In this document: positions 780-29,458 of the stretch, in pieces
Layout of the letters: each line of letters begins with the position of its first letter
Position numbering within the stretch: position 1 is the stretch's first letter
Origin: Bacteroidales bacterium
GTDB lineage: Bacteria; Bacteroidota; Bacteroidia; Bacteroidales; UBA10428
Reading direction: 5' to 3'
DNA length: 32,875 bases
NCBI GenBank assembly: GCA_016936215.1
Contig: JAFGPL010000305.1
Location: 1 to 32,875 of the forward strand
The notes under the pieces: generated by a model
The model's database searches: none
Told to the model about the DNA's origin: nothing
The model's input: only the letters and a program-made list of their open reading frames with translations
Made by a program: the position numbers and the translations under genes

Positions 780-3170
780 TTATAAATAGACTTTTATATC
801 GTTGTTCTGTTGAAGTATTTCAACCGGGATAAAATTACCCTTTATTTCATTTGCGTTCAAATGAATTTTGGATACTCCTTGTGTTTTTTCTGCAGTATTG
901 AATATTTCAATACTAAGCAATTTATTTCTGAACATACGTTTGATTTTCAGATTGTGCCAGTGGCTTGGAATACAAGGATCTATGGTAATGCCTTTATATT
1001 GAGGCCTGATACCCAGTATATATTGTGTTGCAGCAAAATTAGCCCAGCTTGCAGCCCCACTCAGCCACGGCAGGCGCGAAGCCCCGTACCTTGCACTATA
1101 TTTGCTGTGCGTTGACTGGCAATATACATAAGGTTCTATTTCTCTTACTTCTGCACTGGCATTCATTGCCGATGGCATATAAGACCTGAAATATTCGTAT
1201 GCCCTGTTACCTTTGCCTGCCATTGCTTCGGCAATTACCGCCCAGCCTTGCGTATGACAAAACACCGCACCGTTTTCTTTCATTCCCTTGTTAAAGAGCG
1301 TGGCTTTGATCACCTTCAGGTCGGCTTTTTCATAAGGCGGGTCGCAGATCATTAGCCCGTAATCGGTAAGAAGACTGTTATTTATTAATTCAAGTAACCT
1401 TTCGGCTTTTTGTCCATTTGCATGCCCACTAATGATTGCCCATGTTTGCGGGTTTAGCCATAAAGAGCCTTCATCATCATGTTGCGAGCCATATTTCAAA
1501 CCATCATATCTGAATGCCCTTAAATAACGGTCGTTGTCCCATGCATATTCTTCTATGCTTGCATCCAGCATTTCGAGATGTTTTTGTGCCCATGCAAATT
1601 CTGCGGGCAGGGAGAGCAATTCGCATATATCAATATATGTAACAAGTGCATAGCGCAACTGAAATGCCACAAACACCGATTCTCCCTGCTGACCAAGGAC
1701 AAGGCAGTCGTTCCAGTCGGCCGCAAGTCCGCAGGGCAGGCCATGCGCCCCCATCCGGCCCAGGTTGAATTCTATGGCCCTTTTCAGGTGACCGGTTACC
1801 GTGTCGCTTCCCTTATCGGCATAAGGAAAAACTTTGTTGTAAAAATCAATATTGCCTGTTTCTTTTACATAGGCAGGTACTGTATTAAAAAGCCAGAGAC
1901 AATCGTCTGAACGGTATTCGTCTTCTTCAGGAGGTTTCATTGTGCCCGGTTTATGCGAAAAGGGTTTTACAACAGGCATAGCGCCACCTGCCGAAACCTG
2001 TCCGGTGATCATGAGTTCCAGTCTTTTACCTGCCTCTTCGGGTATCAGATGCAATACCCCCAGTATGTCCTGTACCGTATCCCTGTAACCGAGCCCGTCG
2101 CGCTCACCTGCATATACAAGGCTTGCAGCCCTTGACCAAGCATATGTTATCAGGCAGTTATATGGGCCCCACATGTTCATCATGCTGTTGAAATCGGCAT
2201 CAGGAGTGTAAACGGACATGTTTTCAAGTTTGCCGTGCCAGTATTTTTTCAGTTTATTGAATTCATTTTCAACCCATGCAGGATCATGTACCTCTTTAAG
2301 GGTTCTATTTCCCTCAAACTCTGCAGTTCCGATGCCCATAACTATAACAAACTCTTTTTCTTCACCGGGCCTGAGGTCTATATCAAACTGAAGAACACCG
2401 CAACCATTGTCTCCCGATGCAATTGAACCAGAACATTCACCTTTTTCGACAGCATAAGGCTTTGCATAATTGCCGAAAGTCCCAAGAAAGCGCTTCCGGT
2501 CGGTATCAAAACCAGTAATTTCAGCACCTGCAACACCCAGAAAAGTGTGCCGCGCCTGGCCTCCTTCCTCGAAATTATCGGGTTGCGGCGGCAGGTAAAC
2601 ATTGGTGCCATGGTCTATTATCCCGTCAACCATTTTCATGGTTAGGATATACTGGGTATATTGCAGGTTTACAATATCCTGCCAGAGGTGCCAGTTGCTG
2701 GTATATTCAACGAACGTAAACAAACGGAGATGCCGGTTTGAAGACCCGTTGTTTTTGATACGGCACCGCCATAGTTCAAAATATTTGTCAAGTGGAACAA
2801 AAAAAGTGGTTTGGACAGTGATATCCGAATATGATGATTCTATAACAGTATAGGCAGTCCCATGCCTGCACAGGGCCTTATACTTTTCAAGTGGTTTGGC
2901 TACAGGCTGCCACGATGCCGACCAATAGTCTCCCGAATCCTGGTCGCGGATATAAATATACCTGCCGGGTTGATCGAGTGGAACAGCATTGGTACGATAA
3001 CGCATGAACCTGCCCTGGGCAGCCGATTTGTAAAAACTATAACCGCCGGCATTATTGGTTATTATTGCCCCGTAAACCGTCGAACCCAGATAGTTGCTCC
3101 AGGGTGCCGGCGTTTCGGGATTGGTGATTACATACTCCCGGTTTTTGTCATCGAAATGGCCGAACAGCAT
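780..3170 (-). CDS. GH94 family beta-glycoside phosphorylase (cellobiose/chitobiose phosphorylase-like)
   Basis: 796 aa; N-term MLFGHFDDKNREYVITNPETPAPWSNYLG and GRYIYIRDQDSGDYWSASWQPV; C-term GAASWANFAATQYILGIRP...IDPCIPSHW typical of GH94. Confidence 0.9.
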   Translation of the reverse strand: MLFGHFDDKNREYVITNPETPAPWSNYLGSTVYGAIITNNAGGYSFYKSAAQGRFMRYRTNAVPLDQPGRYIYIRDQDSGDYWSASWQPVAKPLEKYKALCRHGTAYTVIESSYSDITVQTTFFVPLDKYFELWRCRIKNNGSSNRHLRLFTFVEYTSNWHLWQDIVNLQYTQYILTMKMVDGIIDHGTNVYLPPQPDNFEEGGQARHTFLGVAGAEITGFDTDRKRFLGTFGNYAKPYAVEKGECSGSIASGDNGCGVLQFDIDLRPGEEKEFVIVMGIGTAEFEGNRTLKEVHDPAWVENEFNKLKKYWHGKLENMSVYTPDADFNSMMNMWGPYNCLITYAWSRAASLVYAGERDGLGYRDTVQDILGVLHLIPEEAGKRLELMITGQVSAGGAMPVVKPFSHKPGTMKPPEEDEYRSDDCLWLFNTVPAYVKETGNIDFYNKVFPYADKGSDTVTGHLKRAIEFNLGRMGAHGLPCGLAADWNDCLVLGQQGESVFVAFQLRYALVTYIDICELLSLPAEFAWAQKHLEMLDASIEEYAWDNDRYLRAFRYDGLKYGSQHDDEGSLWLNPQTWAIISGHANGQKAERLLELINNSLLTDYGLMICDPPYEKADLKVIKATLFNKGMKENGAVFCHTQGWAVIAEAMAGKGNRAYEYFRSYMPSAMNASAEVREIEPYVYCQSTHSKYSARYGASRLPWLSGAASWANFAATQYILGIRPQYKGITIDPCIPSHWHNLKIKRMFRNKLLSIEIFNTAEKTQGVSKIHLNANEIKGNFIPVEILQQNNDIKVYL

Positions 3171-3188: not shown

Positions 3189-5450
3189 TTAATTTTCACC
3201 CCTTTGTTTTCTTCTTTCTATAAGTTCATTTTCAATTTCCTGCACACGTTTGTCATTAAGCGGATATATCATTGACAATAGTATGGACAATGCGCCCATT
3301 CCGGCAGGTATCAGGCTGAAAAGCAAAAGTAAACCATTAAGGCTTTGTGAAGATTGTACCTCATCTGGCTGAAAACCAAGCTGTGACATAAGTGTAAGTG
3401 CCACAAAGGCACCAAAAGCCCATCCAAATTTCTGAGCCATTGTAGAAGCTGAGAAAACCAGACCAGTAGACCTGGTCCCTTTTTTCCATTCACCATAATC
3501 TGCCGTGTCGGCATACATCGCCCAGATCAAAACGCTTAAAGGGCCGCCCGTCATCGAGCCGGTTATCTGGAAGAAGAAGATCAGGCCGAGTTCTTTGGCG
3601 GTAAGAAAATATATTATTCCGGTGCTGAAGATGGCGATAATAAACAGTACAACAAAAGCCTTCTTTTTGCCGATGAGTTTGGCAAACCATGCTACCAGTA
3701 AAACTCCCAGGAATGATGACATCTGCCCTATGGTGTTGTAAGCTGAAGTTAAGGTAACAAAATCGTATGTTTTAGAACCCAGGAATGGCAACTGAAGCTG
3801 CTGTGTGCCAATTACATATTTAAAGTAGTGAACGGTAACACTTCCTCTTACAGCTACAAAAAGGATAAAGGTAATGGTGGTTGCAAGCAAAATCAGCCAC
3901 GGACGATTGGTCACCAAATTCCTGAGGTCTCTTCCGATAGAAGTTTCCTGTGCTTTGGGGGGTTGTACCCTTTCTTTGGTTGATTTAAAAGCAATAAGGA
4001 AGAAGATTACTGCTGCGATACCGTAAATTACAAAGGACAGTTGCCAGCCTTTGGCCTCTTTAATTACTTCTATTTCGTACTTTAATGGTTCTCCCTCGGC
4101 TTCGACAAATGAGTCTGAAATATTTATATCCACCGTACCGAATCCGGCTGTGACTACAGCATTTTCAATCAGATTGTTTACATAGGGCGGATTGTTATCT
4201 TTGGTAGCTACCAAAATATTCAGGTTGTGAATAAGTAGTCCCCCTTTATGATCTATGGCAGTGACTTTTATTCTGGCCAGCCCCGGTTTCCCTTCGATGA
4301 ACGACAATTTACTGTCTGTAACAACAGGTGATGCTACCATTCTATTATTACTTTCAGTTTCAAAAGAAAGAGCATCACCATCGGGATCGCTGAAATACCT
4401 GGTCAGGTCAATTTCTTTTTTACCAAAACCGTTTTGCAGTTTGATGAAAACGGTCGAATCTTTGATAACCGGATTATTATTGCCCTCTTTAGCAACATTT
4501 ACATAAAAGGTGTGGGTCTTTTCCCCCCATTTTTTATCCTTAGCTTTAAGAATGATTTTACTGCTTCCGGCATTCTTTTCTGTTATTAAAAGTTTACCGT
4601 TATTGAGTTTAACATCAACAATTTTATTATTTTTATTTTCAACCGAATAATCAAAAAGTTCCTGTTCCCTTCCAGCAAACACTTCCGAAATATCAACCTC
4701 ATGTTGTTGAAATCCCTGGGTAAGATACAGGTCATTTACAGGTTTGTTGATTTCGGGCATATTATTGTCTGCCGGATTAACCCTGAAATTAAATTCCATC
4801 TGGCCTTTATTACCCTGAGTATCTTCAGCAGTTAGGATAATTCTTGCGTTTCCGTTGTCAACTTCATTTATGAGGAGCCTTTGATCCTTTATTTCTGCTT
4901 TTATAATTGATTCGTCACCACTGCCGAGACTTTTTGCCATGGGGAGCAGCGTGGCAGAAACGATGATACCCGCGGCAAATGCAAAAAGAAATTTTACAGA
5001 AGATACTGTAGTTCTTTCGTTGGAATCACCTGAGATAACGCCCAGCAAGGAAGTGTACGGTATATTTATTGCCGTGTACATCATCATGATGAGGACAAAG
5101 GTTGCATAAGCCCAGATTATTTTCCCGGACATGCCAAAATTGGGGACAGTAAAAGCAAGAACGCCCACCACAGCAAAAGGAATACACATCCATAGCAGGT
5201 ATGGCCTGAATTTTCCCCACCTGGTGTTTGTGCGGTCTGCTATAATTCCCATTAACGGATCATTTATTCCGTCCCAAAGCCTGCTTACAAGAAACATGGT
5301 GGCTGCGATTGAAGCAGGTATCAGAAACACATCTGTGTAAAAATAAGTGAAATATAGCATGAAAGTTTGCCAATATAGCACCGATGCGAGGTCTCCAAAC
5401 CCGTAACCGATTTTTTCACGTAAGGATAGTCTCATTGAAGTTGATTTCAT
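3189..5450 (-). CDS. MFS (GPH/MelB-like) sugar:cation symporter with a large cadherin/Ig-like insertion between predicted TM5 and TM6
   Basis: REKIGYGFGDLASVLYWQTFMLYFTYFYTDVF, RLWDGINDPLMGIIADRTNTRWGKFRPYLLW and ADTADYGEWKKGTRSTGLVFSA are GPH-family motifs. ORF track start is 5483; internal Met at 5450 (MKSTSMRLSLREK) is the likelier start. Confidence 0.88.
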   Translation of the reverse strand: MKSTSMRLSLREKIGYGFGDLASVLYWQTFMLYFTYFYTDVFLIPASIAATMFLVSRLWDGINDPLMGIIADRTNTRWGKFRPYLLWMCIPFAVVGVLAFTVPNFGMSGKIIWAYATFVLIMMMYTAINIPYTSLLGVISGDSNERTTVSSVKFLFAFAAGIIVSATLLPMAKSLGSGDESIIKAEIKDQRLLINEVDNGNARIILTAEDTQGNKGQMEFNFRVNPADNNMPEINKPVNDLYLTQGFQQHEVDISEVFAGREQELFDYSVENKNNKIVDVKLNNGKLLITEKNAGSSKIILKAKDKKWGEKTHTFYVNVAKEGNNNPVIKDSTVFIKLQNGFGKKEIDLTRYFSDPDGDALSFETESNNRMVASPVVTDSKLSFIEGKPGLARIKVTAIDHKGGLLIHNLNILVATKDNNPPYVNNLIENAVVTAGFGTVDINISDSFVEAEGEPLKYEIEVIKEAKGWQLSFVIYGIAAVIFFLIAFKSTKERVQPPKAQETSIGRDLRNLVTNRPWLILLATTITFILFVAVRGSVTVHYFKYVIGTQQLQLPFLGSKTYDFVTLTSAYNTIGQMSSFLGVLLVAWFAKLIGKKKAFVVLFIIAIFSTGIIYFLTAKELGLIFFFQITGSMTGGPLSVLIWAMYADTADYGEWKKGTRSTGLVFSASTMAQKFGWAFGAFVALTLMSQLGFQPDEVQSSQSLNGLLLLFSLIPAGMGALSILLSMIYPLNDKRVQEIENELIERRKQRGEN

Positions 5451-5641
5451 AATCAAGCGTGTTTTTAGGTATTTAAAGAACACATAAATACAAATTTTTC
5501 AGATACAAAACAATCTAATGTCCTGTTTCTTTCGATCTCAAAATATTAAATTATCACGGGATGAATTCAGAAGATCAGGATTAGTGCGGAACATGAATCC
5601 GGTTATAAAGTTTGGAGATAACAAAACATATACAATTCTGA

Positions 5642-15626: not shown

Positions 15627-16946
15627 TTAACGGTTCCCGATAAACGAATTGGCCTTAATCTCATCAATCAGTAGGTTTGAAATATCCTCCCGGCCCCTTA
15701 CATGAATGTATTTTCCCCTTCCATAGGCCGCGATCTCTTTCATGAAAGCGATAGCCTTTTCATCAAGGCCAAAACCGATTATTGAAATGGTAATGCCCTG
15801 ATTGGCATATCCAGAGATCATTTGCCTGAATTCATCTGCAGGTATATTGCCTCCTGTAAATTTACCATCGGTGGCAAGTATAACCTGGTTGTTCCCGTTT
15901 TGAATGTATTTCTTTTGTGCAAGGCTATAGGCACTGTTCAAGCCTTTTACACCATTGGTAATTCCTGCAGGAGTAAGTCTGTTGATTACTTCCCTAATCT
16001 TATCTTTTTCGCTTCCGTCAACCGATCGCAGCAATACTACAGGTTCTTCAGCATAAGATATAACTGCCACATTATCAATTTTTCTTAATACACTTACTAA
16101 GTTACTCACCGATCCTTTCATAAGTTCAAGCTTATTTTCGGCTTTCATTGACAATGATACATCAACAAGCAAAACCAGGTTGTTTGCTGCATATTGGTCA
16201 ACAGGGAGTGCAAGGGGTTCAATGTCAGGATTATCGGGTAAATCCGGTTCGCTTTTGGGAAATTCAATATTCAACGTGATTTCGGTAGCCGGAACAGGTT
16301 CTGCCAGGGGGTCAATTTCGAAAAAGAGTGCAGGGATAGACCTTCGCAGGTAAAAATCTTCTTCATGGGTATGGTAACCCGCTGCTGTTATTTTTGTGTG
16401 ATATTGCCCGATTTTTAGCTCTTTGGTCATTTTTCCGCCGCTGTTGGTAATGCCGCTGATCTGCTGCTGCATATTGAATAAAAATTCAACATGGGCTTTT
16501 GCTACAGGTTCTTTTGTAATTTTATTCAATACATTCACCTCCCGTATGTCCATGTTGTTTTGGTTAGGGAAACATTCCTGAATGGTAATCACTGTGCCTT
16601 TAATGATTATTTCTGAGTTTCCCACGGGGGTATTCGAAACCACGATGATTTTTTCTTCAAAAGGCCCTAACCTGTTCAGGTCAGGAAGCACAAAAATTTT
16701 TCCCTGTTCACCCGGACCGATGAATTTGCTGTCGTAGCTTACCTTTACATCGGGGCTTTTTCTAACCATGAGTATAGCAAGTGGTTCGTTTCCTGAATTT
16801 TCAAATTCAAAAACCGCAGGGGGATAATCAAGATTGGCTACCCTGCCGAAGTCGTGCGAAGTCTTCTGAAAAATCATGAGGGGTTGCGCCCACATATTGT
16901 GGGTAGTCAGAAGTAAAAAGATCATATTAAACAATGGTCGCATCAT
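15627..16946 (-). CDS. secreted DUF1573-like + carboxypeptidase-regulatory-like + von Willebrand factor A domain protein
   Basis: Likely start MMRPLFNMIFLLLTTHNMWAQ (signal peptide); TSHDFGRV...PAVFEFENSGNEPLAI resembles DUF1573; MIDAS-like DVSLSMKAENKL and VILATDGKFTGG for vWA. The upstream ORF extension (to 17087) overlaps the preceding gene and is probably not translated. Confidence 0.82.
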   Translation of the reverse strand: MMRPLFNMIFLLLTTHNMWAQPLMIFQKTSHDFGRVANLDYPPAVFEFENSGNEPLAILMVRKSPDVKVSYDSKFIGPGEQGKIFVLPDLNRLGPFEEKIIVVSNTPVGNSEIIIKGTVITIQECFPNQNNMDIREVNVLNKITKEPVAKAHVEFLFNMQQQISGITNSGGKMTKELKIGQYHTKITAAGYHTHEEDFYLRRSIPALFFEIDPLAEPVPATEITLNIEFPKSEPDLPDNPDIEPLALPVDQYAANNLVLLVDVSLSMKAENKLELMKGSVSNLVSVLRKIDNVAVISYAEEPVVLLRSVDGSEKDKIREVINRLTPAGITNGVKGLNSAYSLAQKKYIQNGNNQVILATDGKFTGGNIPADEFRQMISGYANQGITISIIGFGLDEKAIAFMKEIAAYGRGKYIHVRGREDISNLLIDEIKANSFIGNR

Positions 16947-16948
16947 GG

Positions 16949-18517
16949 TTATACTATTCGTCTTTTTCCAGCATCCCACCTGACCCTTCTCTTTTCCCTG
17001 TATGCTTTGGTGGCCATCATGCAGGTTATTGTTACCTCGAATCCTTTTTCGATATCGCATGCAGGGGTGCCCCCAAAACGAATGCAATCGAGCCAGTTTT
17101 TCAGGTGAAGGAAAGAGGTATCGGCCTTTTTACCATCGCGCATGGTATAGGTAAGTCCTTTGCTTGCATAATATTGCTCTGTTGGTGATGTTACCGCATC
17201 AATGTCGCCGATACCCTGCCGGTATTCGAAAAACACCTTACCAGGAGTAATCTGCCTGCTTTTGATATATGAGGCATATTGAGTTGATTCCCTGTCTATG
17301 ATCATACGTATGTTATTGTCAACCTCAAGCGACCCATCATGGCCCATGAATATTCTTCCCCTTTCCCTGTTCGAGGCTAGTGAGGCGCTGTAAATAAAGG
17401 TGAGTTCTTTTTCAGGGTAATTACACAATACATTAAAAATGTCGGGTGTTTCACGGTCCTCTTTATGAAAAAAAACGCCGCCTTCAGCAACAACCGAACC
17501 GGGGATGCCTAAACCCATGAGCTGGTTGGCCACATCAAATTCGTGAGACATCAATTGACCGGCGACCCCTGTTGAGTAATCCCAGTAAAGCGACCAGTTA
17601 TAAAATCGTTTAAGGTCAAAAGGCACTTTTGGTGCCTTGCCGAGAAACATGTTCCAGTCGAGTGTTTCAGGTGTTCCGGGTTTCGTGTTACCTTTACCAT
17701 CAAGATGCCTTACCCAGGCGCTGTCCTCAGAATTACGGTTTGAGGTTGTTTCGATTAGCGTTACTTTGCCAATCTTATTGTTCCTTAACAAATACTGTGC
17801 CCTTGGAAAACAATCGTTTTGCGAATACTGGTGACCGACCTGTAATACCATGTTGCTGCTTTTTACCGTATCATAAAGGGCCACAGCCTCTTCTTCGCTG
17901 TTGGTCATGCATTTTTCACAATACACATGTTTACCTGCTTTAATAGCTTCAATGGCAATTGGCCCGTGCCAGAAGTCGGGAGTGGCAATAATTACAGCAT
18001 CAACATTTTTGTCTTCGAGAAGCTTCCTATAGTCTTTGTAACCCTTTGCGGGAATTCCTGAAAAATCGTTTTTGTCTTTGTTATATGCAGAAATTTCTAT
18101 TGCCTGCTGTAAGTGCATGTCGAAAACATCGCAAGCGGCTGTTAGTGAAATATTTAATTTGTCGCGGTTTAGAAAGTCCTGCAGTGTTTTATCCGGTTGC
18201 CCCGATGAAGTGGTATGTGACTTTATCCAACTTTTGTCCACAAACCCGAGTGACCTGAGCAATGATTTGCCGCGGTTGCCGGCACCAATAATTCCAATAC
18301 GCAGATGATCACCAATAACTTTTTTTACAATGAATTTTTTACCCGGATAACCCGGTTGAAAATCTAATCCAAGTTCTGAATATAGATTTTTCCGCTCTTC
18401 AGTAATTAAATCTTCAGACTGTTTCTTTTTAAAGAATGAAAAACCCAGATAGCCAAATACAGGAACTGTTGCCAGTCCTTTGATAATATCTCTCCTGCTA
18501 ATTTTGTTACCAGCCAT
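16949..18517 (-). CDS. Gfo/Idh/MocA-family oxidoreductase with Tat-type signal
   Basis: NKISRRDIIKGLATVPVFGYLGF Tat-like leader; RIGIIGAGNRGKSLL dinucleotide-binding motif; DAVIIATPDFWHGPIAIEAIKAGKHVYCEKCM. Confidence 0.93.
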   Translation of the reverse strand: MAGNKISRRDIIKGLATVPVFGYLGFSFFKKKQSEDLITEERKNLYSELGLDFQPGYPGKKFIVKKVIGDHLRIGIIGAGNRGKSLLRSLGFVDKSWIKSHTTSSGQPDKTLQDFLNRDKLNISLTAACDVFDMHLQQAIEISAYNKDKNDFSGIPAKGYKDYRKLLEDKNVDAVIIATPDFWHGPIAIEAIKAGKHVYCEKCMTNSEEEAVALYDTVKSSNMVLQVGHQYSQNDCFPRAQYLLRNNKIGKVTLIETTSNRNSEDSAWVRHLDGKGNTKPGTPETLDWNMFLGKAPKVPFDLKRFYNWSLYWDYSTGVAGQLMSHEFDVANQLMGLGIPGSVVAEGGVFFHKEDRETPDIFNVLCNYPEKELTFIYSASLASNRERGRIFMGHDGSLEVDNNIRMIIDRESTQYASYIKSRQITPGKVFFEYRQGIGDIDAVTSPTEQYYASKGLTYTMRDGKKADTSFLHLKNWLDCIRFGGTPACDIEKGFEVTITCMMATKAYREKRRVRWDAGKRRIV

Positions 18518-18613: not shown

Positions 18614-19099
18614 CTATTCGTTATATTCCTTTATTATGTCTTTTACCATTTCCGGAGACACACGACCATATGTTTTTTCTCCTACCATTACTACGGGTGC
18701 AAGACCGCATGCCCCCACGCATCTCAGGCATCCGATAGAGAATTTGCCGTCGGCTGTGGTTTCTCCAACTTCAATCCCGAGCTCTTTTTTAAATTCCTGG
18801 AGCACGGTTTCGGCGCCTCTTACATAACAAGCAGTACCGGTGCATATGGATATGGGGTATTTGCCTTTGGGTATCATCGAGAAAAAACTGTAAAAAGTAA
18901 CCACCCCATATACTTTGGATAATGGAACATCCATTTCCTGTGACACTACTTCCTGTACTTCGGCAGGAAGGTACCCAAATGTTGACTGCACCTTGTGCAG
19001 TGCATTGATTAACTCACCAGGGTTGTTATTAAAAGATTTGCATATCTCTTTAATCTTATCAACCTGGTTTTTCTTAAGTTCTACTTTTATATTTGACAT
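18614..19099 (-). CDS. hydC: [FeFe]-hydrogenase NuoE-like subunit (2Fe-2S thioredoxin-like)
   Basis: 161 aa; VYGVVTFYSFFSMIPKGKYPISICTGTACYVRGAETVL...SIGCLRCVGACGLAPVVMV, NuoE/HndA family. Confidence 0.93.
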   Translation of the reverse strand: MSNIKVELKKNQVDKIKEICKSFNNNPGELINALHKVQSTFGYLPAEVQEVVSQEMDVPLSKVYGVVTFYSFFSMIPKGKYPISICTGTACYVRGAETVLQEFKKELGIEVGETTADGKFSIGCLRCVGACGLAPVVMVGEKTYGRVSPEMVKDIIKEYNE

Positions 19100-19126
19100 A
19101 TCTCAAGTTTTTCCGTTATTGTATTT

Positions 19127-20902
19127 TCAGATATAAATGATTCTTTTTTTCTTATCAACATAATGAGTATGCAGTAATTTATGGGCCTTATCGCTCATTG
19201 GTTTGCCGAGAAATTCCTCATAAAGTTTGATGATGTATGGGTTTTCATGCGATTTTCTTATCGTTTTTCCTTCATCTTCACGATAAATTGCTTCCATACG
19301 CTTTTTCAGGATTTCGGTTTTGCCGTGGTGTAATGGTTGCCCGCCACCACCGATACAACCGCCCGGGCAGGCCATTATTTCGATAGCATGAAAATTACTT
19401 TCACCTTTCCTGATGCTTTCAAGAAGTTGCCGTGCCTTGCCAAGTCCATGGGCAATACCTATATTGATAGGTGTTCCGCCAAAATCTATGGTAGCCTGCC
19501 TGATGCCTTCCATCCCTCTTAATTCTTTAAAATCAACTTTTTCAAGGCTTTTACCTGTGAAAAGCTCGTAAGCAGTCCGGACAGCAGCTTCGATTACGCC
19601 ACCTGTGGCACCGAAAATAACGCCTGCCCCGGATGATTCACCGAGAGGTGCATCAAAATCATCGTCCTGTAATGAATTGAATGAAATATTTGCTCTTTTA
19701 ATCAAAGAAGCCAATTCACGGGTCGAAATAGAATAGTCTACATCAGGATTTCCGTTTACTTTAAACTCGTCACGCTGGCACTCGTATTTTTTGGCCAGGC
19801 ATGGCATGATCGAAACCACGATCAGGTCTTCCCTTTTTACATTTATTTTTTGTGCAAAATAGGTTTTGGCTATGGCGCCGAACATTTGTTGTGGAGACCT
19901 TGCCGTAGAAGGGATATCGAGCATGTCGGTAAACTGTGATTCGAAAAAGTTGACCCAGCCGGGGCAACAGGAGGTAAGAATCGGCAGTTTAACATTTTTG
20001 TCGCCTTTCAGATGTTTTGAAAGCCTTTCAAGCAATTCGGTGCCTTCTTCCATGATGGTAAGGTCGGCTGCAAAATCGGTGTCGAAAACATATTTGAAAC
20101 CAAGCTGACGCAGTGCCGAAACCATTTTTCCGGTGACGAGGGTTCCGGGTTCAAGGCCGAATTCTTCGCCAAGCGCGGCCCTTACGGCAGGCGCTGTTTG
20201 CACGATCACCGTTTTATTGGGATTGGCCAGGTCGCGTATCAGTTTATTGGTATGGTCAACTTCGGTAAGCGCCGCAGTGGGGCATACTGCAACACACTGC
20301 CCGCAATAGGTACATACAGAGTCTTCAAGGTCCATTTCAAAGGCCGGGGCAACTACCGACATAAATCCCCTGTTCACGGCTGATAATGCCCCTACAGTCT
20401 GGAATTCATTACACATGGTTTCACACCTGCGGCACATGATACATTTATCCATGTTACGAATAATCGAGGGTGAGAAATCCACACGATAGGTTGACATTTC
20501 TGATATTTCCTGGTAGGGGATATCCCTGATGCCAAGTTTGATGGCGATACTCTGAAGTTCGCAATTACCCGATTTCGGACATACAAGGCATTCTTTCGGA
20601 TGGTCTGAAAGGATTAGTTCCATTACAATCCTTCGGGCATTTAAGACCCTGATAGAATGCGTGTTTACAACCATTCCTTCCGTGACTTCTGTCGAGCATG
20701 AGGGGGCAAGGTTTCTGCGGCCTTCCACCTCTACCACGCAAATACGGCAACCACCCGGTTTGTGCTCAATGCCGAGGTCTGCCAGGTCCATATAACAAAG
20801 CACTGGGATATCAATGCCTACTTTTTTGGCAGCTTTGTAAATAGTTGTCCCTTTTTCTACTTCAACTATTTTGTTGTCTATTGTAAGTTTTATCATTTCC
20901 AT
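19127..20902 (-). CDS. hydA: catalytic [FeFe]-hydrogenase subunit with NuoG-like N-terminal Fe-S domains
   Basis: Complete H-cluster signatures: TSCCPGW (L1), MPCLAKKYE (L2), EIMACPGGCIGGGGQP (L3); N-terminal 2Fe-2S, HPKECLVC and 2x4Fe-4S motifs. Confidence 0.97.
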   Translation of the reverse strand: MEMIKLTIDNKIVEVEKGTTIYKAAKKVGIDIPVLCYMDLADLGIEHKPGGCRICVVEVEGRRNLAPSCSTEVTEGMVVNTHSIRVLNARRIVMELILSDHPKECLVCPKSGNCELQSIAIKLGIRDIPYQEISEMSTYRVDFSPSIIRNMDKCIMCRRCETMCNEFQTVGALSAVNRGFMSVVAPAFEMDLEDSVCTYCGQCVAVCPTAALTEVDHTNKLIRDLANPNKTVIVQTAPAVRAALGEEFGLEPGTLVTGKMVSALRQLGFKYVFDTDFAADLTIMEEGTELLERLSKHLKGDKNVKLPILTSCCPGWVNFFESQFTDMLDIPSTARSPQQMFGAIAKTYFAQKINVKREDLIVVSIMPCLAKKYECQRDEFKVNGNPDVDYSISTRELASLIKRANISFNSLQDDDFDAPLGESSGAGVIFGATGGVIEAAVRTAYELFTGKSLEKVDFKELRGMEGIRQATIDFGGTPINIGIAHGLGKARQLLESIRKGESNFHAIEIMACPGGCIGGGGQPLHHGKTEILKKRMEAIYREDEGKTIRKSHENPYIIKLYEEFLGKPMSDKAHKLLHTHYVDKKKRIIYI

Positions 20903-20912
20903 TTTTCCAGAA

Positions 20913-22706
20913 TTAATTGACGATTACTGCATTAAATTTACATCTTTCAAGACACGCGCCACATTTGATACATAGTTTCGGGTCTATTTTGTGTATTTGT
21001 TTACGTTCACCGGTGATTGCACCTACAGGGCAGGCCCTGGCGCATGCTGTGCAGCCTACACAATTTTCGGGGACTATTTCATAGGTCATTAATGCTTTAC
21101 ATACCCCGGCTGGACACTTTTTATCAATGATATGGGCATCGTATTCATGCCTGAAGTGTTCCAAAGTTGATAGCACAGGATTGGGTGAAGCCTGGCCGAG
21201 CCCACATAAAGCAGTGTCTTTGATAACGTAACTCAGGTTTATTAACCTGTCTATATCTTCCGGGGCGCCATTTCCTTTGCATATCCTGTCAAGCAGTTCA
21301 TGCAACCTTTTGTTGCCGATACGGCAGGGGGTGCATTTACCGCACGATTCTTCTACCGAGAATTCAAGGAAGAATTTGGCAAAATCTACCATACAATCGT
21401 CCTCGTCCATAACGATCATACCGCCTGATCCCATCATTGAACCTGCTGCCACAAGGGTTTCGTATTCAATCGGGATATTGAGGTGCTTTTCGGTGAGACA
21501 TCCGCCCGAAGGGCCGCCTGTTTGCACGGCTTTGAATTTTTTACCGTTTTTAATTCCGCCGCCGATTTCAAAAATAACTTCACGCAGCGTGATACCCATC
21601 GGAACCTCAATTAATCCTACGTTATTTATCTTACCTGCCAGCGCGAAAACTTTTGTCCCTTTTGATTTTTCTGTGCCAATGCTGCTGAACCATTCCGCTC
21701 CTTTTGTGAGGATGACCGGAATATTTGCAAAAGTCTCCACGTTATTTACATTGGTGGGTTTTCCGAGGTATCCTGATACAGCCGGGAATGGAGGTTTAAG
21801 TGTTGGTTCTCCACGTCCGCCTTCCATTGAATGGATGAGGGCGGTTTCTTCCCCACATACGAAGGCGCCTGCTCCATACCTTAGTTCTATGTCGAAGCTG
21901 AATTTTGAACCAAGTATGTTATTTCCAAGTAACCCATATTCCCTTGCCTGCTTAATGGCTGTTTTTAACCTTTCGATTGCAAGCGGATACTCTGCCCTGA
22001 TATATACAAGACCTTTATCAGCGCCTATACAATAGCCGCAAATGGCCATTGCTTCAATTACCGTATGCGGATCACCCTCAAGAATTGACCTGTCCATGAA
22101 GGCACCCGGGTCGCCTTCATCGGCATTACATACTACATATTTTTCATTTCCAGGGCTTTTAGCTGCAAGTTCCCATTTAAGACCTGTAGGAAAGCCGGCT
22201 CCCCCGCGTCCGCGCAGGCCGCTGTCTTTAATGATTTTGATGGTATCTGCCGGGCTCAATTCTGTAAGAACCTTACCTAATGCTTCATATCCATCACGGG
22301 ATATATATTCCCCAATATTTTCAGGGTCAATGATACCGCAATTGCGAAGCGCAATACGTACCTGCTTTTTATAAAAACCAATTTCCCTGGTTGAACCTGC
22401 TGTTTTCTTTGCCACAGGGTCGGTATAAAGGAGCCTTTCTACCTTACGGCCTTTAACGATATGCTCGGCAACAATTTCTTTAGCATCTTCAGGTTTTACC
22501 TGTGTATAAAATGTATTGTCGGGAATAATCTTCACGATAGGCCCTTTTTCACAAAATCCAAAGCACCCTGTTCTTACAACCTGTGCAAAATCGCTCAGGC
22601 CTTCATTGCCAATCTCTTTTTTCAGATTTTCATAAATCAATTCGCTTTGGGAGGCTTTACATCCGGTGCCCCCGCAAACTAATAAATGCAGTTTATAATC
22701 AGACAT
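20913..22706 (-). CDS. hydB: NAD(P)H-dependent hydrogenase NuoF-like flavoprotein subunit
   Basis: N-terminal 2Fe-2S (VCGGTGCKASQS...TGCFGFC), GLRGRGGAGFPTGLKWE, NADEGDPGAFMDRSILEGDPH, ESCGKCTPCRIG, C-terminal 2x4Fe-4S. Confidence 0.96.
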   Translation of the reverse strand: MSDYKLHLLVCGGTGCKASQSELIYENLKKEIGNEGLSDFAQVVRTGCFGFCEKGPIVKIIPDNTFYTQVKPEDAKEIVAEHIVKGRKVERLLYTDPVAKKTAGSTREIGFYKKQVRIALRNCGIIDPENIGEYISRDGYEALGKVLTELSPADTIKIIKDSGLRGRGGAGFPTGLKWELAAKSPGNEKYVVCNADEGDPGAFMDRSILEGDPHTVIEAMAICGYCIGADKGLVYIRAEYPLAIERLKTAIKQAREYGLLGNNILGSKFSFDIELRYGAGAFVCGEETALIHSMEGGRGEPTLKPPFPAVSGYLGKPTNVNNVETFANIPVILTKGAEWFSSIGTEKSKGTKVFALAGKINNVGLIEVPMGITLREVIFEIGGGIKNGKKFKAVQTGGPSGGCLTEKHLNIPIEYETLVAAGSMMGSGGMIVMDEDDCMVDFAKFFLEFSVEESCGKCTPCRIGNKRLHELLDRICKGNGAPEDIDRLINLSYVIKDTALCGLGQASPNPVLSTLEHFRHEYDAHIIDKKCPAGVCKALMTYEIVPENCVGCTACARACPVGAITGERKQIHKIDPKLCIKCGACLERCKFNAVIVN

Positions 22707-22721
22707 AACAGTTATTTTGTT

Positions 22722-23120
22722 TTATTTATTGTCAATTGTTTCATAATTAACAGGAATAATTCCATCCACCAGTTCGCCGTTTTTAATATATCTTTCGATT
22801 ATTTCATCGGCTTTTTTCATGTTGACATAGCCAAAGACTACAGGTTCTTTGCCGGGAATGGTCACCTCGATGGTGGGTTCAGCATAGCAATAACCCATGC
22901 AGCCTGTTTGAGTGACTACGGCATCAATGTTTCGTTTTTCAAGCTCGTCAACAATAAAATTCATAACCTCCCGAGACCCGGAGGCAATACAACATGTAGC
23001 CATTGCTACCTTCACCTGCACAAGGTTTTCGGGATGTTCTCCTTTTTCGCGGATACTGGTTTTTGATTTCAGTTCATCGCGGATTTTACGCAAATCGTTC
23101 AGACTTTTTAATTTGGTCAT
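22722..23120 (-). CDS. (2Fe-2S) ferredoxin-domain protein, HndB-like
   Basis: 132 aa; VKVAMATCCIASGSREVM...TQTGCMGYCYAEPTIEVTIPG. Confidence 0.88.
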   Translation of the reverse strand: MTKLKSLNDLRKIRDELKSKTSIREKGEHPENLVQVKVAMATCCIASGSREVMNFIVDELEKRNIDAVVTQTGCMGYCYAEPTIEVTIPGKEPVVFGYVNMKKADEIIERYIKNGELVDGIIPVNYETIDNK

Positions 23121-23164
23121 GGTTATTAAAATTTTAAAATATCCTTTAATATATCCTGTTTTTA

Positions 23165-23710
23165 TTAAGATGCACCAATGTTTTTCAGGTTCTCATCTAT
23201 CATCTCTTTAATAAAGTTAATAATTTTTGGTGTATTAACATTCAATCCTTCAAGTATTTCGGAAATTTCTCTGCTGTCAAATACAAATTCTCTTCCGTCA
23301 ATTTCGTGTTTGTAAACCAGGTGGTACGAATGGCCAGAGCAAAGCAAAGATTTAATCGTTGCTGCCATATTGCCCATTGGCGGGCAATCAATATGACTTT
23401 TTTTAAAAATGGCAGTCACCATGGTACCCGTACCTTTTTCCGAAACTATATTCAAAGAACCTTCACATTGTTCTGCATTCTGCTTTAGGAGTGGAAGCCC
23501 CATTCCGATTTTTCTGGTACTCCTGGTTGAGAAAAACGGATCGGTTACTTTTTCAACCAGTTCTTTGTCAATGCCTTTACCATTGTCCCTGATCTCAATG
23601 GTCAATTTGTCGGTAGCACTGTCTTCGTTTACAGTTATATAGATTTCTGATGCCCCGGCACGAATTGAATTCTGGGTGATATCCAGTATATGTAACGACA
23701 AATCATTCAT
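23165..23710 (-). CDS. stand-alone HATPase (histidine-kinase-like ATPase without a phosphoacceptor domain)
   Basis: HILDITQNSIRAGASEIYI (N-box), IRDNGKGID (G1), GMGLPLLKQNAEQ (G2); no DHp region. Confidence 0.85.
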   Translation of the reverse strand: MNDLSLHILDITQNSIRAGASEIYITVNEDSATDKLTIEIRDNGKGIDKELVEKVTDPFFSTRSTRKIGMGLPLLKQNAEQCEGSLNIVSEKGTGTMVTAIFKKSHIDCPPMGNMAATIKSLLCSGHSYHLVYKHEIDGREFVFDSREISEILEGLNVNTPKIINFIKEMIDENLKNIGAS

Positions 23711-24453
23711 TTTTTTAATGCCATCACTTTACGACCAGCTTCTGCTGCAAAGGCCATTTTTATCTCATCAAAATCATCATTTTCTATATATAGCATGGTA
23801 AAACCGCTTCCTATATCTTCGATACAATGTGCATCAGAGCCCCTTATAACCGTGTATCTGGCAATTTCAGGTGTTTTCATCAGCAAGGCGTTAAAATCAA
23901 TGCTTTTTGAAATTTCAACAGCATCAATTTTTAGGTTGTCGGGAATAAACCCCAGGTTTGCCAATAAACTGTTTGAAGGCCTGTCTATATGGGCCGGCAC
24001 AAATATGCCATTCATCATGCTAACAATCTCTGCGGCTTCACCGAGATTGAGAGAAAGTGCTGATATCAGCAGCCAATCAACCTCGTAAAGTATATTTTCA
24101 TCTCTGTCAACCACCGGCTGGTAGCCGAAAATCTCTTTCCGGTTTGGTATGTCCGGTTTATGTTTTTCAATTATTTGCTGAAAAATATTTGCCGTTTCAA
24201 CTGTTTCAAAGAACGCGAGGCAATGAACCTCTTCTTTTGTGGTGATCTCAACTCCCGGCAGCACTTTTATCCCTGCCTCTTTTCCCAGCTTACACATTAA
24301 TTTACAGTGAAGCGTGGAGTTGTGATCGGTTATTGCCAGTATGTCAATTTTTTCTGCAACTGCCTTTTCTATGATCTTAACCGGTGCCATATCAAGGCTG
24401 GCGCATGGTGAAAGAACGGTGTGAACATGAAAATCAGCTTTGAATGTCCTCAT
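23707..24453 (-). CDS. PHP-domain phosphoesterase-like protein
   Basis: FKADFHVHTVLSPCASLDM, ILAITDHNSTLHC, LPGVEITTKEEVHCLAFF, VIRGSDAHCIEDIG. Confidence 0.92.
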   Translation of the reverse strand: MRTFKADFHVHTVLSPCASLDMAPVKIIEKAVAEKIDILAITDHNSTLHCKLMCKLGKEAGIKVLPGVEITTKEEVHCLAFFETVETANIFQQIIEKHKPDIPNRKEIFGYQPVVDRDENILYEVDWLLISALSLNLGEAAEIVSMMNGIFVPAHIDRPSNSLLANLGFIPDNLKIDAVEISKSIDFNALLMKTPEIARYTVIRGSDAHCIEDIGSGFTMLYIENDDFDEIKMAFAAEAGRKVMALKK

Positions 24454-24787
24454 TTTCTTTCAGCAATTGGTATAACCTGCCTGCTGTTTCAAATGCCGGC
24501 AGGTCTGTTGCCAGGATAACCACACCCTCTTTTTCTGCCTGCGTTACTGTTTCTGTATCAGGACGATGGCCGTTAACCAGCACGATGCCCGATAACTCCT
24601 TAAGCAAGGCAACAGCAAGAATATTTTTGTGCGACTGCATGGTAATCCAGAGGTTTCCTTCTGAAGCATTGCCCATTACATTGCTTAACATATCACTGGT
24701 ATAACCCCAGGTTACCATGTTGTTTTTACCAGTGCTGCCACATACTATTTCAAAGTTCAGCCTGTCAGCAATTTCTGCTATATTCAT
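24434..24787 (-). CDS. DRTGG-domain protein (paralogue 1)
   Basis: 117 aa; MNIAEIADRLNFEIVCGSTG...TWGYTSDMLSNVMGNASEGNLWITMQSHKNILAVALLKELSGIVLVNG; overlaps the PHP start. Confidence 0.8.
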   Translation of the reverse strand: MNIAEIADRLNFEIVCGSTGKNNMVTWGYTSDMLSNVMGNASEGNLWITMQSHKNILAVALLKELSGIVLVNGHRPDTETVTQAEKEGVVILATDLPAFETAGRLYQLLKENEDIQS

Positions 24788-26169
24788 ATATCATCTTTCT
24801 TTAATGCAATATCTGCAAATTTCTTTTTTCCCCATACTTTTTCAACCATATCGAAGCTCTGGTCAGGTTTGATATCTTGGTGAATAAGCATAAGTTTTTG
24901 AATAAAAACACAATCGGTAATCGCTGCCCGTTCCTGCACGATATCTTCAGCCAGGGCTTTGCATCCGGGTGAACCGCAGGCGGCACAGTCAATAGCGGGC
25001 AGGTGGCTGTATAGTATACGTGCACGGGTTATTTTTTTCATGGCTGTATCCATGTTTTCATCCAACGCAAAGGCAGCACGCGGTTTTATCGGTTCCAACC
25101 CGATATTTTCCAGCAGATAGTCCTTGAATGTATTTACTGTGCCAGCGTATGTATTAAGGTTTCTGCTTTCTTTGATGTAATCGTTCGCACGGTTCCTAAG
25201 CCTTTCGGCGCACAGAAACCTGTTGGCAACAGAAAGGATTCCTCCTGCGCACCCCTGGTCACATGCTCTTAGTTCAAGGAAATCAAACACGCCAATCGAA
25301 TCATTTTCGAGGTCTTCAAGAAATTCTGTTACATTTTGTATTCCGTCAATGGCCAGGCTGCGGCCTGTAGCAAAGCCTGTTTCCCCATTGGTCAGGCTCC
25401 ATAGCATCTCGGTATCGCGAAGCTGTTCTTTGTCAGGTACCTGGCACGATTTACGGTCGCTGCGGTTGATGATTGAGAATACCTTGTTGTAAAGGAAATT
25501 CATGTTTATGACCCCGTTAAACGGAGATTGGCTCTCACCTACAGGGCTTTTAACTGCAGCAATTTTTGCTGCACACGGGGTGATATAGAAAACACCGATC
25601 TCATTTTCTGGAACACCCGATTCAACAAGTTTTTTTCGATATGCAATGGCAGCAATATCCAGCGGGGCTTTTAGCAGCATGATGTTTTCTACAAGCGAGG
25701 GAAATTTTACCTGTATAAGCCTTACAACTGCCGGGCAAAAAGAGGAGATAACAGGTTTTAAAGAAGCATGTTCTTTCTGGTATTTTGATATTTCTTCACC
25801 AAGCAGCCTGGCCCCGTGCTCGGCTTCGAATACATGGGTAAAACCCGATTCGAGAATTCCGCTATAAATCTCACGGGTAGGGATATTACGCGGGAACTGG
25901 CCTATAAAAACCGAGGGGACGATGGCCACACGGTATTTGTATTGAAAGATATTATGGAAATCATCCTGTTCTACAATAATCGCGTTCACAGGGCAGGCTT
26001 TCATACATTCACCACAATCCACGCAGCGCTCGGGCATCAGCACAGCTTTACCATTGCGTACCCTTAAGGCTTCGGTGGGGCATACCTGCATGCAATGTAT
26101 ACATCCGATACAAGCCTCCTCAACAATTTTAAGGGCATGATGAAATGTATGTTTTTTTCCTTCTGTCAT
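24784..26169 (-). CDS. degenerate [FeFe]-hydrogenase-like iron-sulfur protein (2x4Fe-4S + Fe-hydrogenase large-subunit-like + C-terminal Fe-S domain)
   Basis: EACIGCIHCMQVCP and ERCVDCGECMKACP; degenerate motifs SSFCPAVV, TPCAAK, ELRACDQGCAGG; C-terminal IDCAACGSPGCKALAEDIV. Likely start MTEGKKHTF at 26169. Confidence 0.87.
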   Translation of the reverse strand: MTEGKKHTFHHALKIVEEACIGCIHCMQVCPTEALRVRNGKAVLMPERCVDCGECMKACPVNAIIVEQDDFHNIFQYKYRVAIVPSVFIGQFPRNIPTREIYSGILESGFTHVFEAEHGARLLGEEISKYQKEHASLKPVISSFCPAVVRLIQVKFPSLVENIMLLKAPLDIAAIAYRKKLVESGVPENEIGVFYITPCAAKIAAVKSPVGESQSPFNGVINMNFLYNKVFSIINRSDRKSCQVPDKEQLRDTEMLWSLTNGETGFATGRSLAIDGIQNVTEFLEDLENDSIGVFDFLELRACDQGCAGGILSVANRFLCAERLRNRANDYIKESRNLNTYAGTVNTFKDYLLENIGLEPIKPRAAFALDENMDTAMKKITRARILYSHLPAIDCAACGSPGCKALAEDIVQERAAITDCVFIQKLMLIHQDIKPDQSFDMVEKVWGKKKFADIALKKDDI

Positions 26170-26582
26170 AATCTGGTAAAACAAGTTATTTCAACCTTGG
26201 TGCCGGTTCCCGGCGTGCTCGTGATTTTCAGTTCGTCTGCATTTTTTTTGATATTAGGAAGCCCCATGCCAGCGCCAAAACCCATTTCACGCACTTTCTC
26301 GTTGGCTGTGGACCATCCTTCAGTCATTGCTTTTTCAATATCTTCAATACCGGGGCCCTCGTCTTTTACTGCAATGAAGATTCTGCCAGTGTCAATATCA
26401 ACGGTCATGGTACCTCTGTAAGCATGTGCCACAACATTTACTTCGGCTTCATACATGGCAACAGCAATACGTTTGATCAATGACGGTTCAAGGTTTAATT
26501 GTCTAAGAATTTTTTTTACCTCACTTGAGGCAGAACCTGCCTTTGTGAAGTCGCCACCTTCTATTTGATATTCAAATATCAT
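26166..26582 (-). CDS. RsbW-like anti-sigma-type serine kinase ATPase
   Basis: MYEAEVNVVAHAYRG (N-box), VKDEGPGIEDIEKAM (G1), GFGAGMGLPNIKKNADEL (G2). Confidence 0.87.
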   Translation of the reverse strand: MIFEYQIEGGDFTKAGSASSEVKKILRQLNLEPSLIKRIAVAMYEAEVNVVAHAYRGTMTVDIDTGRIFIAVKDEGPGIEDIEKAMTEGWSTANEKVREMGFGAGMGLPNIKKNADELKITSTPGTGTKVEITCFTRL

Positions 26583-26594
26583 TCGGTCAACCCG

Positions 26595-26939
26595 TTAAAA
26601 CAACGGTTTTATGCCTGCATGGTGAAGTTGTCCGCAAACATTGAACATTGAAGAGGCAGATTCAATCAATACGATGTTGCTCTCCTCGGCCAGATCAATC
26701 ATTTCTTTGGTGGGTTTTTTGTTTCTTACAAATACTATCCCTGAAATGTCGGCCATTTCGGCTGTGCGTATTGTCTGCATGTTGGCAAGCCCGGTAATAA
26801 GCAGAATATCCGCTGAATCAAGCGTAAGTACGTCACTCATCAGGTCCGAGGCAAATGCGTGATTTACTTCTTTGCCAGAGTGTAAATTCCCGCTTACAAT
26901 TTTTCCGTTGATCAATCTTGCCACTTCACCAATTTTCAT
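26595..26939 (-). CDS. DRTGG-domain protein (paralogue 2), first gene of the hydrogenase operon
   Basis: MKIGEVARLINGKIVSGNLHSGKEVNHAFASDLMSDVLTLDSADILLITGLANMQTIRTAEMADISGIVFVRNKKP; same layout as paralogue 1. Track start 26951; MKIGE start at 26939. Confidence 0.8.
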   Translation of the reverse strand: MKIGEVARLINGKIVSGNLHSGKEVNHAFASDLMSDVLTLDSADILLITGLANMQTIRTAEMADISGIVFVRNKKPTKEMIDLAEESNIVLIESASSMFNVCGQLHHAGIKPLF

Positions 26940-26982
26940 TTTATACAGCATTTTATATCCGTGTTACGGATTAGCTTTTTCT

Positions 26983-27000
26983 TTGTTACAAAAATAACAA
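26983..27000. promoter_or_regulatory. Rex-like operator, site 1 (overlaps a putative -7 box)
   Basis: TTGTTACAAAAATAACAA (TTGTTA-N6-TAACAA); minus strand includes TATTTTTG, matching TAnnTTTG. Confidence 0.65.
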
Positions 27001-27005
27001 TAATT

Positions 27006-27023
27006 TTGTTATTATTATAACAA
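27006..27023. promoter_or_regulatory. Rex-like operator, site 2
   Basis: TTGTTATTATTATAACAA; perfect palindrome extending to TTTTGTTAT-TATT-ATAACAAAA (27004-27025). Confidence 0.7.
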
Positions 27024-27212
27024 AAACTCAATAAACAATTAATCTATAATGTTTCTAAATAACAATATTGATAAGTTCAAGTTACAAAAAATAGTTATAA
27101 ATGCTTAATTAAAAGGTCAATTTATTGATTGATGTTCATCAAATAGTTATACAGGTATTGATGTAACGGGAAAAATGAGTTTTGTATGCCTGGTTAAACC
27201 GAAGATTTTGGT

Positions 27213-28013
27213 CTATTGTTTATTTAACCATTCCAGCCAATTCTCAAGACCGGTCCCTGATCTTAAAGAAATCTCAAAAAATTGAAGATGATGATTGATT
27301 TTTAACGCATTGTTTTTCAGTTCATCAAGGTTAAAATCAAGATGCGGGAGTAAATCTGTTTTATTGATGATACAGACATGAGATGACTGAAACATATACG
27401 GGTATTTCAGAGGCTTATCCTCTCCTTCGGTAACACTAATGACAACAACCCTTGCCGTTTCCCCGAGGTCGAACATGGCCGGACAGACGAGGTTGCCCAC
27501 ATTTTCAATCATCAGAATGGAGTTATCGGGTGGTTGCAACTCTTTGAGGGCTGAATGCACCATAGATGCATCAAGGTGGCAGCCGCTGCCGGTATTTACC
27601 TGAACAACCGGCACCCCTGCAGACTTGATCCTGTCCGCATCACGGGTGGTCTGTTGGTCGCCTTCAATGACTGATATTATTCTTTTTACCTGCCGCGACT
27701 GAACAGTTTTTTCAAGCAGGAGCGTTTTTCCGGCGCCGGGGGAGCTTACAAGATTGAGGGCAACAATATTTTTTGCCTCAAAAAATCCCCTGTTCCTTTC
27801 GGCAAGAAGGTTGTTATGGTAGAGGGCATCTTTTTCTACTTCAATAATTTTTCCTGAATGATGGTGGTGGCTGTGATTTTCTTCGTTACCGTGGTCGTGC
27901 TGATGAGGATGTGTATGCGGGTGCTGGTGGTCATCACCATGATGGGTATGGCCGCCTGATGAGGTGATGATTGTATATCCGCTGTTATTGCTGCATCCGC
28001 ATGTATCACACAT
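27213..28013 (-). CDS. hypB: hydrogenase nickel incorporation GTPase HypB with His-rich N-terminus
   Basis: MCDTCGC N-terminal motif, His-rich stretch, NLVSSPGAGKTLLLEKT P-loop, VIEGDQQTTRDADRI, IINKTDLLPHLDF. Confidence 0.95.
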   Translation of the reverse strand: MCDTCGCSNNSGYTIITSSGGHTHHGDDHQHPHTHPHQHDHGNEENHSHHHHSGKIIEVEKDALYHNNLLAERNRGFFEAKNIVALNLVSSPGAGKTLLLEKTVQSRQVKRIISVIEGDQQTTRDADRIKSAGVPVVQVNTGSGCHLDASMVHSALKELQPPDNSILMIENVGNLVCPAMFDLGETARVVVISVTEGEDKPLKYPYMFQSSHVCIINKTDLLPHLDFNLDELKNNALKINHHLQFFEISLRSGTGLENWLEWLNKQ

Positions 28014-28060
28014 GGTTTTTTGTTTGTTTTGTCAAATTTAATATAATTGTTTCTTTTTCA

Positions 28061-28402
28061 CTAATCAATCTCAATAGACTTTACCCGCATCTCTTTACCT
28101 GAAGTTATCGTTACATTGAACGAGGAGCAGTGAGGGCAGACAGCAATGAGGTTATCGGGGTTAAACTCTTTATTGCAGTCATTACAGATAGCCTTTGCCG
28201 GAATATATATAAAAGTTATTTTTGCGTTTTCAAGCATGGTATTTTTAACGGCTGATTGCATGGCCATTTCAAGTGCTTCAGGGACAATGCCCGATGCTTC
28301 CCCGATTTCGAGTACAATACCGCTTATTTTTTCAGCATGGTGCAACTTCGCAGTTTCTTCGGCTATTTCAACAATATTTACTGCTATTGAAAATTCGTGC
28401 AT
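28061..28402 (-). CDS. hypA: hydrogenase nickel insertion protein HypA
   Basis: MHEFSIAVNIVEIAEETAKLH; zinc motif CNDCNKEF...CPHC. Track ORF extends upstream to 28429; MHEFS start at 28402. Confidence 0.92.
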   Translation of the reverse strand: MHEFSIAVNIVEIAEETAKLHHAEKISGIVLEIGEASGIVPEALEMAMQSAVKNTMLENAKITFIYIPAKAICNDCNKEFNPDNLIAVCPHCSSFNVTITSGKEMRVKSIEID

Positions 28403-28422
28403 AAAACAAGTGTTTTTTGCCA

Positions 28423-29445: not shown

Positions 29446-29458
29446 GTTTTAAAAAAGG

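Follow-up and report, generated by a model that had tools for sequence, protein, structure and literature searches.

A predicted GPH-type sugar symporter of a Bacteroidales bacterium with a split cadherin-like array between TM5 and TM6

MFS secondary transporters usually have short loops and, to our knowledge, how folded domains enter these loops is poorly known. Our literature search for a comparable domain in GPH symporters or elsewhere in the MFS, with subscription papers mostly outside its coverage, returned only PepT1 and PepT2, mammalian MFS transporters of the POT family. The extracellular domain of these proteins consists of two Ig-like lobes in tandem, binds trypsin, and can be removed with transport left intact (PMC4597091). 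The Ig-like domains were proposed to tether trypsin, a nutrient-releasing enzyme (PMC4597091).

The stretch of DNA analyzed here, the window, comprises 32,875 nucleotides of contig JAFGPL010000305.1 from a Bacteroidales bacterium. An uninterrupted ORF on its minus strand (3189–5483) begins at a GTG; the likely start codon is the ATG at 5450, near the starts of the orthologs, which would give a protein of 753 aa (table 1). TIGR00792 (gph) and Pfam MFS_2 each match this protein in two pieces flanking residues ~180–465. The TIGR00792 match is above its cut-off over the whole core (366 bits vs. 231) and PF13347 scores 289 bits; the MelB equivalog NF007749 is not reached (212 bits vs. 456). The profile alignment to MelB spans the whole core and its break falls in the loop after TM5. 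On helix II, D60 and D64 align with D55 and D59, the cation-site pair in the WDAIND motif of MelB. The sugar-site residues D19 and D124 of MelB are not conserved, V24 and N129 being found at those columns. Hence, the protein is GPH-like in its fold and in its coupling site but has a different sugar site. The model of the protein has a 12-TM MFS fold like that of MelB (Foldseek TMt 0.80–0.87). Judged by its sequence, the protein is a GPH/MelB-type symporter with predicted cation coupling of sugar transport. An earlier inspection of the letters alone (the sequence-only reading) had already called it a GPH symporter with an insertion in the TM5–TM6 loop; the alignment to MelB bears out both points, together with the profile and Foldseek matches for the family and the order of the AlphaFold helices for the loop.

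Table 1. Features of the symporter gene, its insert, and the adjacent phosphorylase gene in the window
Feature	Window positions	Strand	Basis
GPH-type MFS symporter gene, 753 aa (predicted)	3189..5450	-	Conserved ATG start, ORF, profile matches
Core N-terminal part, TM1–TM5, residues 1–177, D60/D64 pair	4920..5450	-	AlphaFold helices 10–176; alignment to MelB chain 4m64_A
S0, second (C-terminal) half of split cadherin-like unit, four strands, residues 178–228	4767..4919	-	Unit profile positions 46–93; model strands
R1, whole cadherin-like unit, residues 229–323, conserved W-G 308–309 in F-G turn	4482..4766	-	Unit profile, strands
R2, whole cadherin-like unit, residues 324–418, DPDGDAL motif	4197..4481	-	Unit profile; sub-threshold Pfam Cadherin_4/Big_9
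S3, N-terminal half (3 strands) of split unit, residues 419–466, complements S0	4053..4196	-	Unit profile positions 1–44; model strands
Core C-terminal part, TM6–TM12, residues 467–753	3192..4052	-	Profile match, AlphaFold, MelB alignment
GH94 glycoside phosphorylase gene (predicted), 18 bases downstream of symporter	780..3170	-	Closest solved relative N,N'-diacetylchitobiose phosphorylase 8bou

The insert adds 288 residues between TM5 and TM6 (residues 179–466, window 4053–4916), so the extent of 4050–4922 given by the sequence-only reading was accurate. It consists of a half-unit, two whole units, and a second half-unit (51 + 95 + 95 + 48 aa); the array starts and ends mid-unit. A unit profile of 95 positions, built only from the two whole units, was applied to 13 sequences. 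S3 maps to about positions 1–47 of this profile and S0 to about positions 45–93 in 12 of the 13. Joined in the order last plus first, S3 and S0 match in one stretch with 47–78 bits in all 13 sequences, and shuffled controls do not exceed 5.9 bits. By this profile evidence, S0 and S3 are the C- and N-terminal halves of one 95-aa cadherin-like unit. The insert stays below the Pfam gathering scores of Cadherin_4 (16.4 vs. 25.1 bits) and Big_9 (14.7 vs. 23.6 bits), and unit R2 searched alone against Pfam gives 16 bits. The linkers NNMPEI, NNNPVI, and NNPPYV reported previously are all present, and so is a full DPDGDAL motif, once. As a refinement, the complete DPDGD is kept in only one of the three units, R2. 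Among calcium motifs, NN-P linkers are thus accompanied by a single complete DPDGD, and no LDRE was seen in the sequence. The W-G motif that R1 has in its F-G turn (window 4524–4529, minus strand) is kept in 12 of the 13 sequences, in an insert that otherwise drifts. One relative (L062:6010-8340) has 24 extra residues with repeated KVENQNK inside unit R1, possibly reflecting ongoing repeat growth or an error.

AlphaFold, run on the symporter with an alignment of 34 sequences, predicted the whole protein with pLDDT 85 and pTM 0.81: five long helices (residues 10–176), an all-beta insert (183–463), and then the remaining helices. Modeled alone, the insert reaches a mean pLDDT of 92 and a pTM of 0.72, with the strands of both half-units formed. 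The model suggested in the sequence-only reading thus yields a confident all-beta insert between the TM5 and TM6 helices. Strand counts are four for S0, seven each for R1 and R2, and three for S3, that is, a seven-strand Ig-like sandwich per unit (3 + 4 for S3 and S0). Foldseek matches the insert to cadherin EC domains with E values of 1e-7 to 1e-9, in line with the cadherin/Ig-like fold proposed earlier; the top non-MFS match of the model is a fucoidanase with Ig/cadherin-like modules. However, superposition on linear cadherin rods fails (rmsd ~28–33 Å, TMq ~0.27), the similarity being significant domain by domain and not as arrays. This failure is expected if the ends of the insert meet. Considering also the secondary structure and the confidence of the model, the two halves probably close into one composite domain. 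We infer that the insert lies on the periplasmic side because TM5 runs outward; positive charges are mostly in loops opposite the insert side. The periplasmic location asserted earlier is thereby upheld by the MelB alignment, the helix order, and the charge distribution.

A scan of named genomes revealed an insert at the same site and in the same phase in 17 other genome assemblies. Twelve of these inserts are of the three-unit form (L057–L067 and L069, ~288 aa), one of a four-unit form (L068, ~400 aa), and four of a one-unit form (L105, L108, L109, and L120, 95 aa). The four-unit form consists of a C-half, three whole units, and an N-half. In the one-unit form (L105, L109, L120), a C-half is followed by an N-half with nothing whole, and the matches are weak (7–16 bits each). 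The records carrying the insert are named as Bacteroidales, Balneolaceae, Calditrichaceae, and KSB1, as planctomycete bins, or as unclassified bacteria. Almost all of the members come from metagenome bins, and the species assignment of some loci may be wrong. Within the same genus and family, and in a second family as well, there are full-length relatives with 60–66% identity. The same scan contained dozens of insert-free orthologs with 50–77% core identity to the window, and the closest pair of insert-bearing and insert-free proteins (L064 and L102) shares 82% core identity. In the insert-free proteins the loop is near-constant across phyla and stays close to LGGGNDARGWQ (LGGGND-ARGWQ) nearly everywhere; in three of them (L070–L072) it is TGVINEAKGFQ, which resembles the end of the insert. 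Evenly sampling 396 genomes from the phylum yielded no further insert-bearing ortholog, so the insert-bearing form is rare. We therefore regard the insert as an optional accessory module on the periplasmic side. The sequence-only reading missed four points: the split unit, the stepwise unit number, the close insert-free orthologs, and a GH94 partner gene.

On a core tree built with the insert left out, the insert state changes 8 times (bootstrap range 7–9), with at least four changes forced by well-supported branches. Constraining all insert-bearing cores to one clade costs 258 log units, and their monophyly is rejected (p-AU 0.0004). When trees are built from the inserts and from the cores of the same 12 proteins, each rejects the topology of the other (p 1e-9 and 0.001). 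Mean pairwise identity is ~67% for the core versus ~35% for the insert. The unit tree places the composite units, the R1 units, and the R2 units in separate supported clades (96/82, 98/96, and 100/99, respectively), which marks them as position-specific orthologs; an unexpected pairing of L058 with L066 recurs in both R1 and R2. As these clades coexist with non-monophyletic cores, the array has a single origin, and its present carriers belong to separate core lineages. A quick FastTree run had hinted at an independent capture in the distant L069. A careful tree joins its composite and R1 units to the matching clades and does not reject the same for R2, and we discarded this possibility. A recent foreign origin judged by base composition was also discarded: the GC3 of the insert is mostly slightly lower but follows each genome.

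The nearest non-transporter sequences to the insert are arrays in large proteins from the same family of genomes. One of them (L050, 1337–6976, 1,879 aa) carries five cadherin-like units of the repeat family of the insert and a confirmed T9SS sorting tail at its end; two others (L049, and L051 of 1,586 aa) have three matches each. Most units of these arrays score 40–78 bits with the insert unit profile. In the large exported proteins (L050, L051) the units are whole and in a row, whereas the insert units of the symporters form clades of their own. It is plausible, from the profile matches, that arrays of exported proteins were the source of the insert. L050 and L051 also carry HYDIN/ASH-type Ig domains. 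A second GPH subfamily (L043, L044, L166) has ~126 extra residues at the same TM5–TM6 site; its insert-free relatives (L167–L171) share 63–80% identity with the C-terminal and 73–77% with the N-terminal part of the L043 core. In their natural order, these inserts align with Pfam Big_9 over its C-terminal part only (positions 32–88 in L043, 35–88 in L166). When the last part is moved to the front, they cover positions 4–88 or 6–88, and their scores rise from 28.4 to 38.1 and from 35.7 to 44.6 bits. The domain family is not that of the first insert and seems to be split at another turn, so an independent capture is most likely. Another GPH subfamily (L045:4991-6598, L046:5060-6766, L047:3778-5391) has an insert of ~85 aa in the same loop, and one GPH protein (L048:4929-6557) has ~70 extra residues not there but in a later loop near TM11–TM12.

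The GH94 gene next to the symporter scores 765 bits against 8bou, followed among characterized enzymes by chitobiose (540 bits) and cellobiose (524 bits) phosphorylases. Its product is likely a diacetylchitobiose or other disaccharide phosphorylase acting as partner of the symporter, and the transported sugar is probably a beta-linked disaccharide. GH94 genes lie near many insert-bearing and insert-free orthologs alike; three insert-bearing loci (L063, L065, L066) have GH130 phosphorylases instead, plus epimerase-like proteins where tested. The simple idea that the insert determines the substrate was rejected, as the same phosphorylase occurs with and without the insert and the partner varies between GH94 and GH130. 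The docking to SusC/D suggested by the sequence-only reading did not find support: the SusC and SusD of the window have no homolog in the examined flanks of any insert-bearing relative. More generally, no conserved partner gene of the insert was found. Elsewhere in the window, the region 18614–32499 (minus strand) resembles a bifurcating hydrogenase locus that also encodes regulatory hydrogenases. This [FeFe]-hydrogenase region includes HydC/NuoE-like, HydA, and HydB/NuoF-like genes at 18614–22706 and two further Fe_hyd_lg_C proteins (24784–26184 and 30640–32499), with HATPase, PHP, SpoIIE-phosphatase, CobW-like, and AIR-synthase-like genes in between. At 15627–17087 (minus strand), a protein combines a DUF1573/HYDIN-like Ig domain with a following von Willebrand A domain.

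The two ends of an Ig-like domain lie at opposite poles. From standard Ig topology, entry by splitting would solve the resulting geometric problem, the ends of TM5 and TM6 being adjacent. The chain would run from TM5 through the second half of the split unit, the two whole units, and the first half into TM6. Both halves would fold into one composite domain standing on the N-bundle, its two poles bridged by the whole units. With the C-D turn, where TM5 and TM6 attach, at the C-terminal pole, whole units would have to bridge the poles, and a three-unit ring would be the simplest closure. As TM5 and TM6 are parts of one bundle, such a module could leave alternating access unhindered. We propose that a cation-coupled disaccharide symporter of the MelB type works with the phosphorylase encoded directly downstream, and that its module is a docking or tethering surface holding the transporter close to enzymes that release saccharides in the periplasm or to some other partner in the envelope. 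The three-unit array would have a single origin, related to the arrays of large exported (T9SS-tailed) proteins of the same genomes, followed by repeated gain, loss, or exchange at the exact same site among orthologs of several phyla. To this reading as a whole we assign a probability of roughly 0.55.

Other explanations of the presence of the insert and of its distribution have to be considered. The window and many relatives being metagenome contigs, an assembly or binning chimera might have produced the insert. Yet site, phase, and unit length are the same in the 17 other assemblies, which come from several sampling projects, and one carrier, Balneolaceae bacterium ANBcel3, has a record not labeled as a MAG. 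Conserved full-length orthologs rule out an assembly chimera, the pitfall raised in the sequence-only reading, as the source of the architecture; the insert stands, and we regard the odds of a chimera as negligible. The insert might instead be ancestral, the insert-free forms resulting from many independent losses with nothing moved horizontally. The single origin of the array would fit this history, as would the TGVINEAKGFQ loops of L070–L072, although these are ambiguous as deletion scars: VNPQKGW in the distant insert-free L054 indicates that their motif may simply be an old loop. Moreover, repeated deletions would hardly restore near-identical insert-free loops across phyla, GPH proteins outside this group mostly lack the insert, and the insert and core trees conflict. 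Ancestry followed by losses alone is therefore unlikely. We infer that exchange of inserts between orthologs, or overwriting of cores, explains the tree conflict better than vertical loss alone. No recombination tract was detected in the flanks, where sliding-window identity showed no excess similarity among insert-bearing sequences, and the route of exchange is thus not demonstrated.

The function of the module can be viewed in several ways. The insert could capture periplasmic di- or oligosaccharides and raise their concentration at the mouth of the transporter. Carbohydrate enzymes often contain Ig/cadherin-like modules, the fucoidanase matched by Foldseek among them, and the W-G motif of R1 is maintained. 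However, standard topology places the conserved Trp at the R1 pole next to the composite domain, where it may be structural, and profile searches detected no carbohydrate-binding family. The low conservation and fast evolution of the insert, and its occurrence beside either GH94 or GH130 partners, argue against a conserved substrate-specific site. Glycan capture thus appears quite improbable. A structural spacer or anchor (peptidoglycan, membrane stability, or oligomer contact), or a near-neutral addition tolerated by the TM5–TM6 loop, would agree with an optional, fast-evolving insert of one, three, or four units and with the unrelated inserts that the same loop takes in other GPH subfamilies. 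It fits less well with the position-specific conservation of the three units across phyla and with long open frames kept over deep divergence, and we find it rather doubtful. Docking or tethering, dispensable for transport as modeled on PepT1/PepT2, is the role that we tentatively favor, at less than even odds; given the rapid evolution of the insert and the lack of a conserved partner gene, it rests on this analogy.

The architecture is real and well delimited; what surprises is that the array enters by a split unit and that it has changed repeatedly by whole units. A broader proposal, for which we would not claim even odds, is that the split self-closing cadherin-like ring is a transferable accessory domain, horizontally exchanged at one fixed GPH loop across bacterial phyla in whole-unit steps (0, 1, 3, 4). 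In a second GPH subfamily, the same loop would have taken up another kind of split Ig-like domain in an independent event, and splitting would be a general mode of entry of Ig-like domains into tight loops of membrane proteins. The split-unit arrangement offers a concrete structural rule for how a domain with ends at opposite poles may enter such a loop. With insert-bearing and insert-free orthologs side by side (up to 82% core identity and 0, 1, 3, or 4 units at one site), the role and cost of the module are testable by natural comparison.

Compared with known systems, the symporter resembles MelB and the GPH family (TIGR00792, PF13347) over its entire 12-helix core, in its cation-site Asp pair, and in its modeled fold, but it differs by the split cadherin-like array of 288 residues in the TM5–TM6 loop and by the loss of the MelB residues D19 and D124. 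The units of the insert resemble cadherin EC domains and bacterial cadherin-like, Big_9, and Cadherin_4 domains in fold and in their DPDGD and NN-P motifs, although they lie below the Pfam cut-offs and only one has the full DPDGD. In contrast to linear cadherin rods, the modeled insert appears self-closing. PepT1 and PepT2 belong to another MFS family; their domain is described as tandem lobes and not a split unit, and the passages considered here report no variation in unit number or exchange (PMC4597091). As in the symporter, their Ig-like domains sit in an outside loop of an MFS importer and are absent from many homologs (PMC4597091). A parallel between this bacterial sugar importer and the human PepT1 and PepT2 domains would help in asking what role such domains play.
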